From positions 930,001-994,000 of the forward strand of contig JAEVLN010000021.1 in the NCBI GenBank assembly GCA_018350325.1: a stretch of 64,000 bases of DNA, written 5' to 3'. Below, one piece after another: positions 1,223 through 11,889 of this stretch. Each line of letters starts with the position of its first letter. Positions within the stretch are counted from its first letter, which is position 1. Below the pieces are notes generated by a model. That model saw only the letters and a program-made list of their open reading frames with translations. It made no database searches and had not been told where the DNA came from. The stretch comes from Globodera rostochiensis. Lineage: Eukaryota; Nematoda; Chromadorea; Rhabditida; Heteroderidae. Made by a program: the position numbers and the translations under genes.

Positions 1223-1360
1223 CTGAAAAGAGTGAAATAAAGCAGCAATGTTAAAGTTGCACATAAAGTGGTATAGAAAGTTGTAAATAGGAGAGGAAAG
1301 TTGCAAGCCAATATGTGGCCAACAAAAACCCCCGAAGAAAACTGCTGGCACCGGTGTTCA

Positions 1361-1400
1361 AAACGGCTATGCCGTTTAACGCAGACCCCGTAGGGGTCTG
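1361..1400. other. Pair of perfect short hairpins
   Basis: AAACGGC-TAT-GCCGTTT (1361-1377) is followed four bases later by CAGACCCC-GTA-GGGGTCTG (1382-1400). Both stems are perfect with 3-nt loops. Helitron 3' ends carry a short GC hairpin, so these may be relics of a mobile-element terminus, but no CTRR end is evident next to them. Confidence 0.5.
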
Positions 1401-1824
1401 GTTCTCTATATATGTAATTTCTACCCCCTTTTCACACATTTCCTCGAATAACTCTTAAACTAAGGGTCGGATCAAAAAATTGTTTTCACAAGACCCCCCA
1501 TAGTTTGGGGTTGCCGATATGGGGAACATTTAGAATCCAAGTTTGGGTTAGGCATTTTCGAGAAAATCCCGAAAAAGAGTCTAAAAATGGCCCAAATTTT
1601 TTGACCACCCCCCATTGTTTGGCTCCCAACTCGGCGGGGAGTACCCTAACTGTTGATGGAATGTTTTGGAGGGCACATCTACAGACCATGGGCTTTCCAA
1701 TGAGCTATAGATGGGCCGGATCAGACAAGTTTAAAGGGTAGATGTGCTGCGCACAAACTCTAAAAAATGTTCGAAAATGGGAAAAGGGTAGGGGTTGGTG
1801 AGGGAGGAATAAGGAGACTTTGTG
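1401..1824. other. Unrecognised moderately GC-rich sequence, probably repeat
   Basis: From about 1490 to 1740 base composition rises and both strands are open for 67-78 codons. Having both strands open, no flanking splice signals and no recognisable domain argues for decayed repeat DNA rather than a gene. Confidence 0.35.
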
Positions 1825-1897
1825 TTGACATGGTTGGTGTAGTGGTTAAGCACTTTGCGTGCAGTGGTGATTGTGTGGGATCAATTCCCGAGTGCCA
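1825..1897 (+). repeat. tRNA-derived SINE head (A and B boxes)
   Basis: An A-box-like TTGGTGTAGTGG starts at 1835. A B-box-like GGGATCAATTCCC lies at 1877-1889, about 30 bp further, and the unit is followed by an A/T-rich tail. An anticodon-like stem GCA/TGC encloses a 7-nt loop. The acceptor stem does not pair well, so this is a tRNA-derived repeat or pseudo-tRNA rather than a working tRNA gene. Confidence 0.5.
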
Positions 1898-2158
1898 AAA
1901 TTATTTTTTTAATTAATAATATTGAATTAAAATATTTGAAAGTCAAGTTTTTTATTTAAAATTTTTTAATAAAAGAATCAAAATGTTTTTAGGTAGAATT
2001 TTTTATTAACAAAACTTTTAACAAAGAACATGGAAGGGGAGGTGGAAGGAAGAGATGAACGGAATGGGGAGGGTGGAGGAGGGAAGGGCGGAAACGTTGC
2101 AAATAAATTTTTTTGTTGTAATATTTGAAATTTACCCCTTGCTGTGAACAGGTGGTTC
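1898..2158. other. AT-rich spacer before Helitron
   Basis: No gene seen. A purine-rich piece (2030-2095) gives a spurious small minus-strand frame. Confidence 0.5.
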
Positions 2159-2294
2159 ATTAAATCCCAAATAAGTAGGGGAAAAAAGTAACAGAGTTAA
2201 TGCAGAGTTTTGGAGAAACAAGGGTGGAGAAAAGCACAGAGCTTTAGGGTAATAGGGAGAGATTTTAGTAGAGATCCATTCAGAGATTTAATGT
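2159..2294 (+). repeat. Left inverted repeat of Helitron
   Basis: It aligns with the reverse complement of 9447-9573 over its whole length, with small gaps near the outer end. The best-conserved part is the inner 60 bp, including TTTAGGGTAATAGGGAGAG. Confidence 0.8.
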
Positions 2295-2349
2295 TAGGTT
2301 CTGAGTTTTCGAGAAACGATCGAAAAAGTATCGAACTCTGAGAGCGAGC

Positions 2350-2367
2350 GGGGGGGGGGGGGGGGGG
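2350..2367 (+). repeat. G18 homopolymer
   Basis: Eighteen consecutive G inside the transposon, between the left inverted repeat and the gene. Its length is likely to be unreliable in any assembly. Confidence 0.9.
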
Positions 2368-2789
2368 TGGGAAGAAATTCTACGGAAAACATGCGAAAAA
2401 ATGAGAGAGAGCGTGAGGGAGAAGAGAAAACAAAGGAAAAATAGATAGTACACAGATTGTTACATTCTCTTCCCTGTTTTGCACCATTGCAATCATTTGT
2501 TTATTAAATGTGATAAAGGATGGTTTAACATTGTTTTTTGTACTTTGTGCTGTGTATTTGTTATTCTTCAGCACAATCAATCAATTCTTATCTTATGCAA
2601 AAATTTGCTTTAACGTTTATTTTTTCCCAATTGTGTTGTTTCAATTTATTCAACAACAAATATAATTCAGCTGATTTAACCTTTTTTCTCTTTTTCGTCT
2701 TTGTGTACCCTTTTCCATTGGTTCGCCAAATTTTTTTACTAATACCGAACTGATTAAACGTTTATAATTCAGCAAGAATTTTCTTCAAA

Positions 2790-5700
2790 ATGCCTTCAGC
2801 AACACGCAAACGAAATATTTCTCATCGTCTGCGTATGCAACAAAACCGAAGTTGTGTAGAAGACTTAGCCGAAGCAGGGGCGTCGACTTCAGAAGCCGCG
2901 AATACTTCCAAAAAGTCATTCGATCAGGAGCTAGCTGAAAGTGAGCAGGGGTCGGAAAAAGTGTTTTTTCCCGATAAAAAAAAGCAACATCGAACAACAC
3001 CATTGTTTGCCGACAACGCTGGCAGGGGCGGATGTAACCCACGAAAAATTAAAGTTTATAACCTTTAATGCCTATTAATATTTTTTTACACATTTACAGT
3101 TGCGTGCTAAGCACATTCAAGAAATTGAGGCTCATCTTAACAAATTGCTGTCTGACTACTCTGCCCGTTCTTGGCCTCACAAAGGATCCGGTGGTATTGT
3201 GATTGTTTAAATTTTTTAATATTGATTATTGTTTTAGCTAAGAGATCGTGGACACGTTGCTGCAGGGGCAATTGTGATTGTTCTTCTTTTGCGCAATGTC
3301 AGCAAAATGCACAAGCTTTTATTTCTGCAAAGAAATATGCTCAAGAATTTCCTGCAGTGCACATGAAGCCAAGGAAATTGACCAAACTTACCGCTCAGTG
3401 CCATCGCAAACACAATTGTGCATCGGGAGAGACCTTTCATCGGGCAAGTTTTGAACATTTTTATTTCAAGGACATTGATTAAGGTTGACTATTACGACAG
3501 CGGACAGTTTGGCGATGCTACTTGTGAACATTGTGACGCACTTTTACTCCATGCGGAACGTGACGCAATAAAAAAGCAGGGGCGTGTCTCTCCATGTTGT
3601 TCAAATGGCGAATGTCATACCGAAGAAATGGCTGCCGCTTATACAGAACTTCAAAGCCCACCAACGATTCTTACGGAGCTGGCAGGGGCGTCCGATTTGC
3701 GAGCACGAGAACAATTCTTGGACAACACATTGCCATTAAACAACACGTTCGCGTTTGCTTCCGTGCACAGTGAAAAAGCTCCAGAGGATCAAATTGCTGG
3801 CCGAAAGGACACCGTCAAATATAATGGTCCGTTCTGTTCATATTGTTTTTTTACATTCATTCTTTTAGGACAATTTTCATTCCAGTTCAGCGACTTGGTC
3901 GCGCCGCAGGGGCGTCGTCCAACATTTGCTCAAGTCTATACCCTGATGCCTGAGGATGCACTCCGCCTACGTTCCGAAAATATCGCCGATGTGCTTGCAT
4001 TACCAATTAGACAAGCAATAATGGAAAAACTCGAGCAATTAATGCGCGAGAACCCGTACGGGCGTACTTTTATGACGGCAGGGGCAAAAATATCGGAAGC
4101 AATGGAGCGGAATGAGGGAGAAATTCCCCGATTTCAAGTGTGTTTTTTTTGTTGCACTTTTTATTTTTTATTTTTTACAGATTGTTTTGCTGACCGACCG
4201 CGCTCTTAATACTGAGGCAATCCGAAGCAGGGGCGAGTGCACAGTTATTGAAAAGACGGAAGCCCCGTCTGCTCAACAAATAGCGGTTATTTGGGTACAA
4301 GAAGACGGGTTGGCCCCAGGAGTGCATGGTCAATATAATTATTTCATCCAATACATCTTTTATTGCTACAGGTTTTTGGGTTTGCGACAAAGCTGGAAAG
4401 ATGAGGCTATTGAAAAGCGGTATGCCACAACTAGACCCATGTTGCTTCCCTCTACTACATCCAAGAGGAACCGCCGGCTGGCAATGGTTTTTGAAGAAGA
4501 AATGCAAGCAGGGGCGCGATGTACGAAGCTTGACATGTCTAGACGAAAATGCTAACGATGACTGCTATACCTTCGGTCCGACAACATCAACGCATCGCGA
4601 TACAGAGCCGCCTGTTCGTAACGAAGACTTTCCTGAAATAGAAGCCGCCTTTGTTGAAGCTGTTCCTGATGCTAATGAGCAGGGGCAAGAGGCGCTGGAT
4701 GATAATGTAGGCTTATTCTTTTATTTCTTTACAGTTTTTATGCCCTTTAGCATGTAATGCCAAGCATTGACTCGGTTGTTTCTGAAGAGTTCTGGCAACG
4801 GCCCACTCATGCGTTGGGCATAAAGAAACCTGGCCCTGAAGTGAACATTTCGGAACGGCAATTCTACCGCTATCGTTTGGCAATGCGCGAGCCCTGCAGG
4901 GGCGCATTCCACTGGCTGTGGTACGCTCGTCGCCTCGCCGAATATTTTGTCATTGCGCTTCTGAATCGTATTGAGCGAAACGAAATGGAACACGTTAAGG
5001 CGCAACAGTCAAAGAAGGATTACCGGCAAATACTTGCACGTGATTATGTGCAGGCGCTTGAGCAGGGGCTACAACGTCAGGAGCCCAATGCCCGACTTGG
5101 CAGCATTTTTTTAATGCCGCAGACTTTTGCTGGCTCGAGGCAATACTATCAGCAAAAGTATGCTGACCTTATGACTATGGTTCGGCGCCTCGGAAATCCA
5201 ACTTGGTCTATTAATTACTTTAGGTTAATATCATTTAGTCATTTTCAGGTTTGTAACCTTCTCCGGAAATCCTTCATGGCCAGAACTCAAAGAAGCACTG
5301 CAGGGGCGCCAACAGTATACCCATCGAGCTGACATCGTTTGCCGAATTTTTATGGACAAAGCGACTGAATTTATAAAGGACCTAACAGAGCGGAACGTTT
5401 TGGGAAAAGTGGCTGGGTGGTGCTATAGTGTTGAGCATCAGAAACGAGGTGCCCTACTCATCATAATACAGATTATAATATTCACAAAATGTTAAGGCAT
5501 GCCACACATACACATCCTTCTTATTCTGGACAAGCAGGGGCGCATTACCTCGCCTAACGTTGTTGACGATTTTGTAAGCGCCAGAATTCCTCCTTTACCA
5601 CAAATGGATGATTTGACACCTGAGGCGAATCAACAGCGGCGGCTCTGGCACTATGTCACTACAATGATGTTGCACGATTGTAATTCAGCATGCACGGACT

Positions 5701-8700
5701 TCGACGAGCAAGGGCGCCCGCAATGCAAAAAACATTTTCCCAAACCGTATTCTGATCATACTGAACTTTCTGGTGATTTTCCCCTATTTTTTCTAACATA
5801 CTATATTTTTGCAATTTAAGAAGTACGCTATACAAATTATGTTCGTTTGCCTGCTGACACTTTTGATGCTGAGCTCCGTGCAGGGGCGCACGTGGAAAAC
5901 CAACAGTTAGGGCCTGGAGATCATGTACTCCCTGAAAACGACCCAGAAAGAGATTGGAACGAAGTCCGTTACCAACGTAAACGTTGCGCAATACCACCAT
6001 GTGTTACTTCACAAAAAACCTATGTGCATAACTCTTTTATTTTAATAAATAGTTTTTTTTTCAGGAGCACTGTGGCCTTTCATATATGAAGAAAAGCAGG
6101 GGCGGCCAAGCCGCTGCGTTGTTGGATGACAGCCGTGTGATCCCATACAATGCCTTCCTTCTTCTCAAATATGGCTGCCATATCAACATTGAGTACGTCT
6201 TCGGGCAAAAGGCCTGCAAATATATCTTCAAATATTTGCTTAAAGGTTTGCAAAATATTTTTAAACGCGCTTATCTTTTTGCTTTTAGGTTTCGAGAAGG
6301 CGTATGTCCGTGTTCTGCAGCCGCGCAGGGGCGAGAGGAGTCAGCCCGAAACTGTCTGCGATTACGACGAAATTGCAGCGACCTTCAAAGTTCGATATAT
6401 GACGTCTATGGAAGCGTACCTTCGTCTGCATTCCTATCGAATTGTGCGCTTATCACACCAAATCTACCCTTTGTCACTCCATGACGAACTTGGTCAAATG
6501 CTTGTCATTGAAGAGGGCCATGCTGAGCAGGGGCGCCGCAACCTGCAGCTTCATACGAGATTGACCGCATTTTTTGACTTATGCTCCAATGACCCAGATG
6601 TATCCGAACTGACTTATGATCGCGTGCCGTATCGCTATTAGTGAGTCCATTTTTCACTTTTTTATTCAATTGTCCTTTAAGCTGGAATCAAAAACACCGC
6701 AAATGGATTAAGCGCAAAAGACCTTTAGTAGAAGAAGTAGCAGGGGCGCGCATGTTCGTCCGAGTTTACACTGTTTCCCCTAAACACTGCGAACTATTTG
6801 CCATACGGTATGGAATCCTATAATTTATTACGTCAAACATTTTTTTAAGCGCTCTTCTTTTGCATCGACCGGGCCCTAAAAGCTTCAAAGACCTTCGCAC
6901 TATTGATGGTCAATGCTATGCAAACTTTACCGAAGCAGCAATACAATTGAACCTCCTTGAGAATGATATTATTTTCGCAGGGGCCATGAGAGATGCCTGC
7001 ATCGACAATATGAATCTCAACAAACTCCAACACTTTTTTGCTATGTTGATCGCTCACGGCAGACCATCGGACCCACAAAAACTATTCAACACTTTTCTTG
7101 ACCAAATGCGTCCTCACAGAGCTGGCGTTGATCCAGACATTCCCTCTCAGTCGTTAGAACGCCGCAGGGGCGAAGTCATGCGCAATCTTGAGTACTACTT
7201 AACATGCATGTCAACCTCATGCGGGTTAGTAATATATTGTTTGTACTTAGTAAAAAACTACTTTTAGTGAGGTTGGACTCTGTGGATTGCCATCAGACTA
7301 CAGCTTTGGCTACCAAGGCGCTATCCTGGAAGAGACGCGTCTAGAAAACGATTTCTATGGCGATCATGCCCAACGATTGACCCCTCAGAAATTGGTTGAG
7401 AAGCATGTGAAGAAATTAAATGTTGATCAACGTAAAGCGTTCGCTTGCATCACAGAAGCCGTCAACGGCAGGGGCAATAAGCGTTGTTTTTTTGTTGAAG
7501 GCTCGGGCGGATGTGGTATTTTCGACTTTTTGCACCCCCCCCCCCATGTTTTAATGTTAAGGTAAAACGTTTTTGTACAACACGCTGATCCGGTGGTGTC
7601 TCGCGGGGAAACCTCAGATCAACTCCGAGCCTGAGTTGCCGAGACAAGCGGTAATAAATAGCAGCTTTTTTTTACAATTTTTGACTCCATGAAACCTAAT
7701 TTTAAGATTACTAGCATTATTTTCTTACCATTTTTAGCCGACGCAATTGAATACTGGCTCTGTGCTAGCATCTGCAAGCACTGGCATTGCCGCCCTTTTG
7801 CTAATCGGCGGCGCAACTGCCCATCGTCTTTTTTCTGTGCCTAATGATGTCTGCGATGATACACCTCCACGCTTAGCTTTCGAGTCTGCAGGGGCAAAAA
7901 AATTGCGTTCTGCCGAACTTTTCATCATTGATGTAGGCAATGTTTACCTTATATGTCACCACTTCTTTTTTAGGAGATTAGCATGTTGAGCAATAAAGTT
8001 TTACGCTACATTGATCGCCTACTTCGAGATGTTTGTGCTACCAATAAACCTTTTGGCGGCAAACCTATCGTACTGGGTGGTGACTGGAAACAACTGGCAC
8101 CAGTTGTGGAGCAGGGGACGCGTGATGACCAGCTTCAGGAGAGCATTAAAATGGACAAATTATTCAAGGACAATTTTGAACAACTTCAGTGCGTTTTGAA
8201 AATCTATTTGTGTCGCAAGTTTTATTTTTAGTTTGTCCATAAACATGCGAACTGCGCTGGACCAGCGTGCTCTTTGCGAGTGGCTTCACATTATCGGCAA
8301 TGGCCTCCATCAAGCAGGGGCAAATCGTCAGCAGGGCCGGCATCCTCTAAAGTTGCATATACCATCTGAATTGCTCGTCGACACTCTTGAAGAAATAATC
8401 GACTTCTGTTTTCCAGCAGCTTTATTCAATGATCCCATTCGGCACGCTGAACTTATCAAAGACAGCGTCATATTATCACCAACTAATGCCGATTTACAAG
8501 CTATCAATGAAAAAGCCATGGAGCGCATTGCAGGGGCTCCAATGATTTACCTGTCAATTGATTCTCCATTGGATGGACAGGAAGAACTTGGGACTTTTCG
8601 CGCAGACTTCAATATCGAGGCTATTCACAATGAAATGCCGTCGGGGATGCCGCCTCACAAGCTCATTTTGAAGGTGTTTGAATTGTTTTACATACATTAA

Positions 8701-9269
8701 TTCTTATGCAATAGACCGGAGCCTCTGTGATGCTCATTCGCAATCTTGATGTTTCCTGTGGACTATGCAATGGCACGCGGATGCAGCTCAGGCGCATGAC
8801 AGAGGAAAATCTGTTCTGCAAACTCTTGACCGGCCCTCGGGAAGGACAGGAGTACATCATACCACGCGTGAAATTTGAATACGGGCAGGGGCGTCATCAC
8901 CGTGGCATTCGTTTCCGTCGCATTCAGTTTCCTGTCCGTCCATGCTTTGCTATGACAGTTAATAAGATATGTTTGAACTTTGTTCATTCATCTATATATT
9001 TTAATCTATTTTAGGCGCAAGGGCAAACTCTGCAAAGAATGGGCCTTGTACTCAATGGAAAGCAATGCTTTTCGCATGGACAAGTGTATGTTGCTATGTC
9101 CAGGGTGACAACAATGGCTGGCATTCGTGTTTTTTCACCACACACCTGCGTGGGCGATACTACCACTATTAACAACGTGATCATCCCTGAGTTACTTGAT
9201 CAATCTGCCGCTCTGCCAGAAGACCCTATTGCAGGGGCGCTTAACAGCCAAGATATTAACCAATCATAG
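2790..9269 (+). CDS. Helitron RepHel protein, 22 exons, 1,839 aa
   Basis: Rolling-circle replication initiator fused to a PIF1-type helicase, which mobilises the element. Hand-spliced exons: 2790-3053, 3100-3190, 3238-3443, 3484-3826, 3869-4137, 4181-4328, 4372-4706, 4751-5205, 5249-5448, 5497-5772, 5821-6023, 6065-6245, 6289-6640, 6682-6807, 6850-7224, 7268-7515, 7562-7650, 7738-7932, 7974-8188, 8232-8673, 8715-8966, 9015-9269. They total 5,520 nt with no internal stop. Seen: cysteine cluster (C201, C204, C225, C226, C231); HUH motif PHIHI near 773-777; Rep tyrosine motif YIFKYLLKG near 983-991; Walker A GSGGCGKT 1353-1360; Walker B IIDE 1450-1453; GGDWKQ 1487-1492; helicase motif VI VYVAMSRVT near 1779-1787. 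Introns are 40-48 nt, except one of 87 nt. Intron 3 is GC-AG (gcaagt donor) and intron 21 can only be read as AT-AG. The ATG at 2790 follows CAAA. No OTU or endonuclease domain is visible. The intact frame suggests a young or recently active copy. Confidence 0.88.
2874..9238 (+). repeat. Dispersed exon-only GCAGGGGC motif array
   Basis: Exact GCAGGGGC starts at 2874, 3022, 3262, 3576, 3682, 3906, 4078, 4227, 4508, 4679, 4896, 5062, 5300, 5534, 5880, 6096, 6325, 6527, 6740, 6977, 7164, 7468, 7888, 8314, 8530, 8885 and 9231. Near copies lie at 2945 (ends T), 8111 (ends A), 5708 and 9017 (GCAAGGGC). All are on the coding strand and all are in exons of the RepHel gene. I noticed none elsewhere in the window and none in reverse complement. 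The codon frame varies: 10 read GCA-GGG (AGA), 9 CAG-GGG (QG) and 8 AGG-GGC (RG), so the constraint is on the nucleic acid rather than the protein. Eighteen copies extend to GCAGGGGCG. Confidence 0.9.
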
Positions 9270-9446
9270 TGCTTGTGCATTTTCTTTTCCGCGATAATAT
9301 TCGAATAATTTAATTTTTAAAGCTTGGTGTCTTTAAAGCAAGAAAGGCACATGCCAAACGTGTTGATGTGCACTCGAAAATATTTCAAACAATTTACTAA
9401 TTATATACCGTTTATCGGTTTTTTCTCGTCAACTGCCTGACACAAC

Positions 9447-9573
9447 ACATTAAATCTCTAAGTGGATCTCTACTAAAATCTCTCTCTATTACCCTAAACC
9501 TCTGTGCTATTCTTTCCCTAATTTCTCCCAAATCTCTGTATTCCTCTTTGTTAGATTTTTTCCCCCATTTAAT
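9447..9573 (-). repeat. Right inverted repeat of Helitron
   Basis: Reverse-complement partner of 2159-2294. TATTACCCTAAA and TGGATCTCTACTAAAA mirror the left copy. Confidence 0.8.
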
Positions 9574-9666
9574 TAGTCACTTAAAACCCTATAAGAGAAA
9601 TGTGAAAAGAGAAAAATGCCAAAAAGGAAGGCGTAAATGTCAAAAAGCCGACAAAGGGAAAATAAC

Positions 9667-9761
9667 CGCGCGAAGCGCGTCTAGGCTCAGTGTTGAAATC
9701 GCCTTGGCGATTTCAGTACAAAAAAAAATTTAAAAATACAGTGCCCGCCCACCGGGCACTG
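9667..9761. other. Three consecutive perfect hairpins
   Basis: CGCGC-GAA-GCGCG at 9667-9679 is followed at once by TCTAG. TGAAATCGCC-TT-GGCGATTTCA lies at 9694-9715 (10-bp stem), and CAGTGCCCG-CCCAC-CGGGCACTG at 9739-9761 (9-bp stem). A GC hairpin followed by CTAG resembles a Helitron 3' terminus (CTRR). The other two stems could be ends of related elements or transcription stop structures. Which, if any, belongs to the upstream transposon is not settled. Confidence 0.55.
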
Positions 9762-9769
9762 GTTTCAGT

Positions 9770-11889
9770 ATACTAAAAATACATTGCTAAATCTGCCCAA
9801 CTATTTGAAGTTTCTTTTTGTGTAGTTGTTATTAAATAGCGTGAATTTTTTGCTGTAGTTTTTGTAAATTATGTTATTGTATTTTGATTTTTATTATGAT
9901 AAAACATCTAACCCGTGCATGGTGGAATGTCTGAAATAGTCGTCCATCGGATCAAACTGGATTTATACCGAGTAGATGAATGCTAATATTGCGAATAAAT
10001 ATTTGATCCATTCCTTTTGCGACTCTGTAATCTGTACAATGATTTTGATAATAAAATTATTTCATTCTTCCTGGACAATACGGCGGACGGTGTGGAAATC
10101 ACCAATTATACATGGCGCTAATTTACACAGTCTTAGAATTTATAATATATATAATCCAAACATATCTTCTATAGAACGACCTCAAAGGTCTACAAGCTTA
10201 GAAAAACATATTAACTATCCCTTCACACAAAAAATGTTTTAATTATTTCTGAGTAGAATAAGTATTTAATTGCAATTACGAAATAGCATTGAGATTTATT
10301 ATTTATGACAAATAAATTAAATTTTATTTGGTAATACGTTGTTTATTAAATCAAGTTGCCTGATACAATATTTACATTGTTATATATTTAACCAAACTAT
10401 TATTAAGATAAACATATGAGGCCCAAGGTCCAACGACCAGCCTGCTTGTGCAGACTGACGATCCGATAGATGCAAATGATACAAGTTAAAGTAAAAAATT
10501 TAACACAGTAAATAATATAAAATAAACAATTAAATTTTCGTAATTAAAAAAATAAAAAACAGTTAATGCGTAAGATTGTATAATTAAAAACATATGGCAA
10601 TAACTTGCCACATAATAATTTAAAAATAAATGAGCAAAGAAAAGAAACTAATTAAAAAGTCAAATTAATAAAATGTATTTTAAAACTTATTTGTAACACA
10701 ATAAAAGCATATTAAAACAAAGATCTGAAAAATTAGATATCTTTGTATTATTCCAATAAGACAATAAATTAAATTATTTATAAACTTAAGAAATGTTACG
10801 TAAAAAATAATCACAGAGTAAAAATTTGTGAGTGTAAAAAAATTTAATAAATTTAATTTAATGGGGAAGGGGTTAAATAAAAAACTCGTAAAATCGTGTT
10901 GGAGAACCAGCAGATCATCCTGCGTGCCCTCGAGCCCCACGTACGCCGAATTGAATTAAATTAAATATATAAGAAATCAATAGACAAAGTCTTGATAATT
11001 TAAAATAAATAATATTATGAGACCGCGCATCTTGGTAACATAATTATTACATCATGCAATAATGACGACAATTATATAAAAATATAAGGAAATGCAGAAT
11101 TACGCTAAAAGTAAACATAAATTAAAATAAATTTCAAACAATTAATGATGCTATATAAAACAAGGCTTTCAACACTATTTATTATATACTTAATAATCGG
11201 TGTCTAAAATTTCCAGACATCAGCTAATTAATACGAAAATATTCTATTTTCTGCATAAGATTAGATTGAAAATAAAACCGTAACAACATGTTATATTAAA
11301 CAGATGATCCATTAAAATAAATATTTAAATAATTAATTATACAACCGAATAAAAGTACTAAAATTATATTTTGGAAATTTTTTTTATTACTATCATTTAA
11401 TATCTATCATATACCATCTCGCTACTCCAAGATCATCATTAATGAAATCAACGGCCTTTGCACTATGTGTGTTTTTTTGGTTGTGGTTCTGGAGGACTTT
11501 TATTGCTTGTATTTGTTTATTAGTAATATAATTATGTAACGATTGCTAATTTAACTAATTTGAAAATTAATGCTTTATAAAAAATTAAACAAAAAATATT
11601 CATTAAAAAATATTCGATTTTTATAAGCGACTTAAATTTTTAAAATTTAATATGAATAAATTTTAATAAATACATGAAATTTAGTTTAAACGGTTTTCTT
11701 GAATAATATATTCATTAATATTTTTAAACCAATTAAATAACCAAGTTAAATGAAGGATTGTATTATTAGGTGTAAAATTAAAGCTTGTATGGATAGTTAA
11801 GATCGCGAACCAACAATATAAAGTTTAAAAAAATTATAATTTTTAATACCTTTTAAAAGAATAGGAATAAAGTAATCAAAACTTTGCAG
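9770..11889. other. AT desert with GC-richer islands
   Basis: Mostly A/T. Short islands stand out at about 9905-9985, 10070-10130, 10418-10475 and 10885-10950. The last can be read on the plus strand as VLENQQIILRALEPHVRRIE before a stop, so it may be an exon relic. Nothing else supportable. Confidence 0.45.

Follow-up and report, generated by a model that had tools for sequence, protein, structure and literature searches.

Short self-complementary words in family-specific dialects along the coding exons of Helitrons from Globodera rostochiensis: probable self-tags of the element mRNA

The window considered here is a stretch of 64,000 nucleotides of Globodera rostochiensis (contig JAEVLN010000021.1), in which a Helitron transposon, referred to as family A, carries within the exons of its RepHel gene 27 exact copies of one octamer, GCAGGGGC. 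Considering together the copies of this element, those of a sister family and the related proteins of cyst nematodes, the words are real, selected and structured, and they occur in dialects. The explanation that we find probable is that the array consists of self-tags of the element mRNA, i.e. mini-hairpins with a family-specific loop that are read by an element-specific factor. The stronger proposition of a transposon password, in which a covarying two-base-pair mini-hairpin with a fixed tetraloop, present throughout the spliced mRNA, changes together with an element-encoded reader and lets families coexist without cross-talk, is advanced tentatively, with somewhat less than even confidence.

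All the copies in the window are on the + strand and exonic, from a first start at 2874 to a last word at 9231–9238; GCAGGGGC is absent from the - strand and from the rest of the 64 kb. This count agrees with a preliminary description of the same DNA, which had reported 27 exact octamers on the coding strand, none in the 21 introns and none elsewhere; as for near copies, the spliced RNA contains six with one mismatch instead of four. Genome-wide, the octamer occurs 1,214 times (599 + 615) in 92.6 Mb, a density at which about 0.04 copies per strand would be expected by chance in 6.4 kb. The shuffled-codon and antisense controls then suggested also set the array apart, since 2,000 synonymous-codon shuffles of RepHel gave a mean of 1.32 copies and a maximum of 6, and the antisense gave none. 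The reading-frame phases of the words (10, 8 and 9) use all three frames, in accordance with the earlier tally from which it was concluded that the protein is not the selected object. Out of 31 runs of at least four G in the spliced RNA, 27 belong to words.

The words are evenly spaced. With the corrected family-A gene model, the mean distance is 207 nt, with a coefficient of variation (CV) of 0.30, a minimum of 106 and a maximum of 342, versus a CV of about 0.95 for uniform placement; with an earlier family-A model, 5,000 uniform placements never reached the observed evenness. As the coding sequence begins 84 nt before the first word and ends 31 nt after the last one, the words tile the whole reading frame. 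In the copies of family B described below, the mean distances are 154–177 nt, with CVs of 0.43–0.48.

Three further copies of family A (L010, L011 and L012) contain 27, 26 and 28 words, respectively. L010 differs from the window by just 0.4%, and L011 and L012 diverge from it by 5.6–9.2% outside the words. Comparison of the window with L012 gives no difference in 208 mark bases versus 304 in 5,428 bases elsewhere, and comparison with L011 gives 1 in 216 versus 489 in 5,344, the differences outside the marks being perhaps inflated because the early-exon models of L011 and L012 are approximate. At four-fold degenerate sites the figures are 0/42 in marks versus 84/756 outside (L012) and 0/43 versus 119/716 (L011), so the motif is conserved while synonymous sites diverge, as the preliminary description had envisaged. 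Judging from these sequence comparisons, the word, rather than the protein, is what is conserved. The variation of pairs within family A amounts to a single GAAGGGTC in L011.

The internal structure of the words is seen in family B, a sister family from the same assembly (four fetched copies, L013–L016; 69% identical in the searched stretch). These copies contain no GCAGGGGC; their words are instead GTGGGGACG, GCGGGGGCG, GGGGGGCCG and, once, GAGGGGTCG, which share the form G-N-GGGG-N'-C-G and number 32–34 per copy. At exonic G-N-GGGG-N'-C sites, N and N' are complementary in 34 of 35 cases both in L015 and in L016, and in 32 of 35 in L013, versus at most 22–24 after shuffling of N', the observed value being reached in none of 20,000 shuffles. 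The pairs in use are T-A, G-C, C-G and, once per copy, A-T. The ninth base, directly following the paired word, is G in 33/34 (L015), 34/34 (L016) and 32/32 (L013) cases. The family-A octamer fits the same word form (GC-AGGG-GC). Concerning longer stems, no clear pairing excess was found at seven further positions outside the two pairs.

At one orthologous site of family B, a compensatory double change is observed, the word being GCGGGGGCG in L015, L016 and a further copy, L034, and GTGGGGACG in L013. Relative to L016, the mark bases changed are 2/306 in L015, 8/306 in L013, 3/153 in L014 and 1/187 in L034, versus differences in the aligned gene of 5.9%, 10.0%, 9.4% and 6.3%, respectively. When the two families are aligned, 5 of the 27 A words share their column with an L015 word and 12 are at most 9 nt away from one, the latter versus about 3 under uniform placement. 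The earlier view that the words are substitutions into coding sequence, rather than insertions, holds at several sites where one word replaces another without a gap (A/B peptides PQGRRP/PGGRRP and HQAGAN/HQVGTD), but other sites are offset by a few bases or show a one-codon gap beside the word.

These data bear on the idea that a functionless mutational or gene-conversion process has sprayed a short word into coding DNA. The use of all three reading frames would be expected from it; nevertheless, we consider it very improbable, because copies differ from one another much less in the words than in the remaining gene sequence, also at four-fold sites, because the N:N' pairing was kept through a double change, and because the words are evenly spaced and the intervening introns are free of them.

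A second marked gene occurs downstream of RepHel in L016, with five paired words plus one T-G variant, all of which appear to lie in exons when the gene is read from its sequence. A 94% copy of it is found near a B element (C7:75433-76559). The N-terminus of the G. pallida protein P0013 is similar to that of the protein of this second gene, and a part of the latter, in its G. pallida form, gave no Pfam match over the cut-off.

Concerning the nucleic acid in which the words are read, the non-coding parts of the family-A element were considered together (987 bp of introns and ends of 1,392 and 495 bp, in total 2,874 bp, the ends as tested exceeding the final element ends by a few bases). They contain no family-A word versus 14.1 expected (P 7e-7). 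In family B, the introns of L013, L015 and L016 contain none, versus 5.5–6.7 expected in each. Moreover, one B word is interrupted by an intron (AGTGG/GTAAG...AAG/GGACG, with slashes at the exon borders) in three of the four readable B copies (L013, L014 and L016), L015 having one base different at that site. Since the intron interrupts it, this word exists only after splicing; in family A the intron occupies the same place, without a word there. Cross-pairing of exon ends rarely makes a word by chance, with 0/552 combinations in L016 and 12/506 in L013, the latter figure being too high, in our opinion because its model has a false terminal intron. Finally, three elements with family-A-like ends and no RepHel match (L062, L063 and L064, taken from 27 other places matching part of the A 3′ end) carry no words on either strand, and no GCAGGGGC was found from C1:6,532,635 to C1:6,709,428, a region that includes another A-type 3′ end (C1:6,592,295). 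The exon restriction, the intron-split word, the wordless non-autonomous relatives and the second marked gene together favour that the spliced RNA, not the DNA, is what is likely read. As a side observation, the interior of L062, L063 and L064 is a long C/T-rich (or G/A-rich) repeat with one stop-free frame.

The preliminary description had listed among the possible roles a Chi-like mark on DNA. Such a strand-specific mark, comparable to Chi or KOPS, would act on the strand displaced in rolling-circle transposition and be read by the Rep or helicase part of the protein, and a DNA mini-hairpin would account for the complementarity. HUH Rep proteins often bind hairpins of single-stranded DNA, and mini-hairpins with purine loops are stable in DNA. 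The words are indeed one-stranded and G-rich, and about equally even in DNA and in RNA coordinates (CV in RNA versus DNA, 0.31 versus 0.33 in family A and 0.48 versus 0.44 in L016), so spacing alone cannot separate both readings. However, the placement of the words is not independent of exons and introns, one word is split by an intron, the three fetched elements with family-A-like ends and the surroundings of the further 3′ end are wordless, and on DNA the longest wordless stretches would be those at both ends of the element. Another RepHel might move the wordless elements, because their ends are only about 77–88% like those of family A. All considered, we regard a DNA mark as unlikely.

The same description had also proposed exonic splicing signals, which in an intron-dense gene could be, for instance, G-run sites for host proteins similar to hnRNP F/H. 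At least one word is present in 19 of the 22 exons of the window gene model, and GGG occurs in the three loops considered in this work. Nevertheless, families A and B, in one nucleus, share at least the intron at 7225–7267 but use disjoint words, the split word forms only after splicing, and the N:N' complementarity would be left unexplained, so this role seems quite improbable. The RNA tag, also among the roles listed at first, is the one supported by the exon restriction and the intron-split word. What goes beyond that description is that the words are self-complementary, that they occur in dialects and that a second gene is marked.

The dialects were also studied in proteins of cyst nematodes, by scanning all 256 loops for words encodable by the residues, with 24 of the 50 Helitron proteins found outside cyst nematodes as the reference. 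AGGG ranked first in A-type proteins and GGGG in B-type proteins, in both cases of Globodera and Heterodera, in agreement with the Globodera DNA. GGGT ranked first in a third group (C) of Heterodera, assigned in part from peptides (see below), and for this loop each of the four rows had its maximum at the complementary N:N' combination. The C proteins are also distinct by overall identity (62–65% to the B-type protein P0021, versus 71–83% for the other aligned Heterodera B proteins). Fixed residue differences between B and C amount to 19/69 in mark columns versus 41/827 outside (Fisher 1.1e-8). In G. pallida protein P0002, word-compatible residues occur at 21/21 alignable A sites. Triplets of the type V/A/G/E-G-T/A/P/S were matched in 209 cases and mismatched in 72 in 21 cyst-nematode proteins, versus 4 and 15 in six of the 50 other proteins, although these counts are not independent because the proteins are homologous.

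Two other possibilities, i.e. that the words are targets of host surveillance by small RNA, or an assembly artefact, have nothing specific in their favour, and we give them very little credence. The family-A copies are spread over three contigs, and the same signature appears in public proteins of G. rostochiensis, G. pallida and Heterodera, which argues against an artefact; a harmful target would presumably be lost, not conserved.

Coming back to the self-tags of the mRNA, each tag would consist of G-N-tetraloop-N'-C, usually followed by a stacking G, with positions 1/8 and 2/7 paired. The four loop bases would be fixed in each Helitron family, AGGG in A, GGGG in B and, presumably, GGGT in the Heterodera family, and the tags would be spread evenly, about every 150–210 nt, over the spliced mRNA of the genes of the element. 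The pairing within the words suggests that they may form a hairpin. The disjoint words of families present in one nucleus argue for a reader encoded by, or dedicated to, each family, which most simply would be RepHel or a partner. The purpose of the tags may be self-mRNA recognition. Two guesses are favoured in this respect, without evidence between them: the new protein could be tethered to its own transcripts, which would favour autonomous copies over parasitic non-autonomous ones, or the mRNA could be coated along its length against silencing by host small RNA. By what means the protein of a DNA transposon might favour its own mRNA, or its autonomous copies, is to our knowledge still unsettled.

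Several observations weigh against this interpretation. The nearest-neighbour energies are marginal, from -0.2 to +2.1 kcal/mol for the bare hairpin and from -1.9 to +0.4 with the 3′ G, the commonest B word being at +0.2, from which it follows that the fold would need a protein to stabilise it; absence of the 3′ stacking G makes the hairpin 1.7 kcal/mol worse, which would explain that this base is kept. No known RNA-binding domain was found by Pfam in RepHel, and the B- or C-specific residues outside the marks do not clearly cluster in any part that would point to a reader. With hardly any covariation within family A, its hairpin is deduced from family B. A word split by an intron is seen at one site only, at which L015 is one base off, and words are lost in older copies, such as L013. 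In the protein scan of Globodera B, the loop TGGT ran close behind GGGG (z 6.6 versus 6.9), and the complementary N:N' cell tops its row in B for T-A only. The alignable A sites with word-compatible residues are just 12/20 and 8/16 in Heterodera proteins of family A (P0015 and P0020, respectively). As for the GGGT dialect of the Heterodera C group, it is suggested by protein sequences, and its score is not fully independent because the group was assigned partly from peptides such as GVR.

The arrangement can be compared with known systems. Chi and KOPS of bacteria are strand-specific, G-rich, polar octamers with species dialects, and in this they resemble the words; however, they are DNA marks, for which neither avoidance of introns nor interruption by one would be expected. 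Phage operator hairpins with cognate proteins, like the MS2 operator and boxB/N, are similar in that the loop sequence is fixed per family and the stem pairs are free to covary, but they occur at a single or few sites per RNA and have longer stems. Single-stranded RNA viruses such as STNV and MS2 contain multiple dispersed RNA packaging signals and, according to the accessible parts of the sources, these are many small stem-loops with a shared loop in coding RNA, recognised by a self-encoded protein (PMC6281560, PMC3593212, PMC4836477). The words may be comparable to them (27 with a fixed loop in A and 32–34 in B, with N:N' complementarity in B), their folding being predicted with marginal energies. 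They differ in belonging to the mRNA of a DNA transposon and in being strict 8–9-mers with two base pairs, even spacing and family dialects, and no coat gene was recognised. The dialects of the DNA uptake sequence of Neisseriaceae, as far as the available text goes (PMC3630211), are likewise short self-recognition words with variants in related lineages, but they serve DNA uptake, whereas the words described here are exon-restricted, one-stranded and internally complementary. No comparable nucleic-acid tag was found among the matches listed in the literature searched, with most subscription papers outside its coverage.

If the proposal were true, a second code would be hidden in sequence that already encodes protein, and its dialects would have switched at dozens of sites in parallel. 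It would be a testable self/non-self code and a case of massive overlapping selection on coding sequence, and it would provide ready-made families of short orthogonal RNA tags with presumed readers. The dialects that differ in a single loop base would be a natural experiment in how a code written at dozens of sites switches.

Table 1. Coordinates of the element, its RepHel gene and the words (window positions unless indicated)
Feature	Position	Strand	Evidence or remark
Helitron element, family A	1403..9762	+	Ends from comparison with L010–L012 and head-to-tail junctions in L062/L063
RepHel gene, 22 exons, 21 introns, 1,830 aa	2790..9269	+	Gene models, Pfam, motifs, P0001
GC-AG intron (probable) of RepHel	3444..3483	+	Frame, resemblance to family B
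Intron at the site where 3/4 readable family-B copies have a split mark GTGG/GGACG	7225..7267	+	No family-A mark there
Mark 1 GCAGGGGC	2874..2881	+	
Mark 2 GCAGGGGC	3022..3029	+	
Mark 3 GCAGGGGC	3262..3269	+	
Mark 4 GCAGGGGC	3576..3583	+	
Mark 5 GCAGGGGC	3682..3689	+	
Mark 6 GCAGGGGC	3906..3913	+	Same column: GGGGGGCCG in L015, L016
Mark 7 GCAGGGGC	4078..4085	+	Same column: GCGGGGGCG in L015, L016
Mark 8 GCAGGGGC	4227..4234	+	
Mark 9 GCAGGGGC	4508..4515	+	
Mark 10 GCAGGGGC	4679..4686	+	
Mark 11 GCAGGGGC	4896..4903	+	
Mark 12 GCAGGGGC	5062..5069	+	
Mark 13 GCAGGGGC	5300..5307	+	
Mark 14 GCAGGGGC	5534..5541	+	
Mark 15 GCAGGGGC	5880..5887	+	
Mark 16 GCAGGGGC	6096..6103	+	
Mark 17 GCAGGGGC	6325..6332	+	
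Mark 18 GCAGGGGC	6527..6534	+	
Mark 19 GCAGGGGC	6740..6747	+	
Mark 20 GCAGGGGC	6977..6984	+	
Mark 21 GCAGGGGC	7164..7171	+	
Mark 22 GCAGGGGC	7468..7475	+	
Mark 23 GCAGGGGC	7888..7895	+	
Mark 24 GCAGGGGC	8314..8321	+	Same column: GTGGGGACG in L015, L016
Mark 25 GCAGGGGC	8530..8537	+	
Mark 26 GCAGGGGC	8885..8892	+	
Mark 27 GCAGGGGC	9231..9238	+	
Near copy GCAGGGGT	2945..2952	+	Exact mark in L012
Near copy GCAGGGGA	8111..8118	+	
Second gene of family B	L048:549-1720 (C14:925048-926219)		Coiled-coil-like by eye

Other Helitrons of the same genome were scanned for octamer enrichment and for the combination of two base pairs and a loop, using the best 30 of 79 Helitron_like_N matches (L018–L047; most about 3.5 kb). 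Among them, paired words with a G-rich loop were found in the family-B copy L034 only. The other Helitron families, i.e. L037–L044 and the matches in C22, C24 and C29, showed no words in the loci scanned; many of them have very long uninterrupted frames of about 1,700–2,340 aa. A dense cluster of GTGGGGACG at C1:4423488-4423844 (L061) turned out to be a low-complexity tandem repeat unrelated to the marks. Unrelated repeated words were seen in L023, L026, L027, L038 and L044; those of L026 and L027 form clusters (GTTAACCG/ACCGCCCG and TCAAGAGT, respectively) beside Helitron_like_N domains and do not consist of paired words.

Canonical Helitrons such as Helraiser have a RepHel protein with an HUH motif, two tyrosines and a PIF1 helicase, and termini with a 5′ TC and a 3′ hairpin followed by CTRR, all of which the window element shares. 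It is a canonical autonomous Helitron, with a Rep part (HUH and two tyrosines) fused to a PIF1-like helicase of superfamily 1. Its 5′ end is TC (TCTCTATATA) and its 3′ end a hairpin plus CTGG, the next base being T, in accordance with the canonical insertion before T; in L012 the 3′ end is CTGT in place of CTGG. In the protein, the HUH motif is HIH at 775–777, the two-tyrosine motif YIFKYLLKG (YxxKYxxKG) is at 977 and Walker A at 1347, and the Pfam matches are Helitron_like_N (3.9e-46), PIF1 (4.7e-43) and Pif1_2B (1.6e-15). The public G. rostochiensis protein P0001 matches it with 97% identity at 96% query coverage, and a relative from G. pallida with 90% at 85%. RepHel is the sole gene seen in family A, and Rfam covariance models gave no match at E <= 1 over positions 1300–9800. 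In the part of the work on Helraiser, a canonical Helitron, that is accessible (PMC4778049), a mark in the coding sequence is not mentioned, among the matches listed.

Upstream, positions 700–1520 of the window are occupied by a G-rich minisatellite resembling arrays in L014, and in this region a family-B-type 3′ terminus directly abuts the 5′ end of the family-A element. The latter appears to lie in tandem, its 5′ end following the 3′ terminus of a related element, and the Helitrons considered here seem to insert head to tail.

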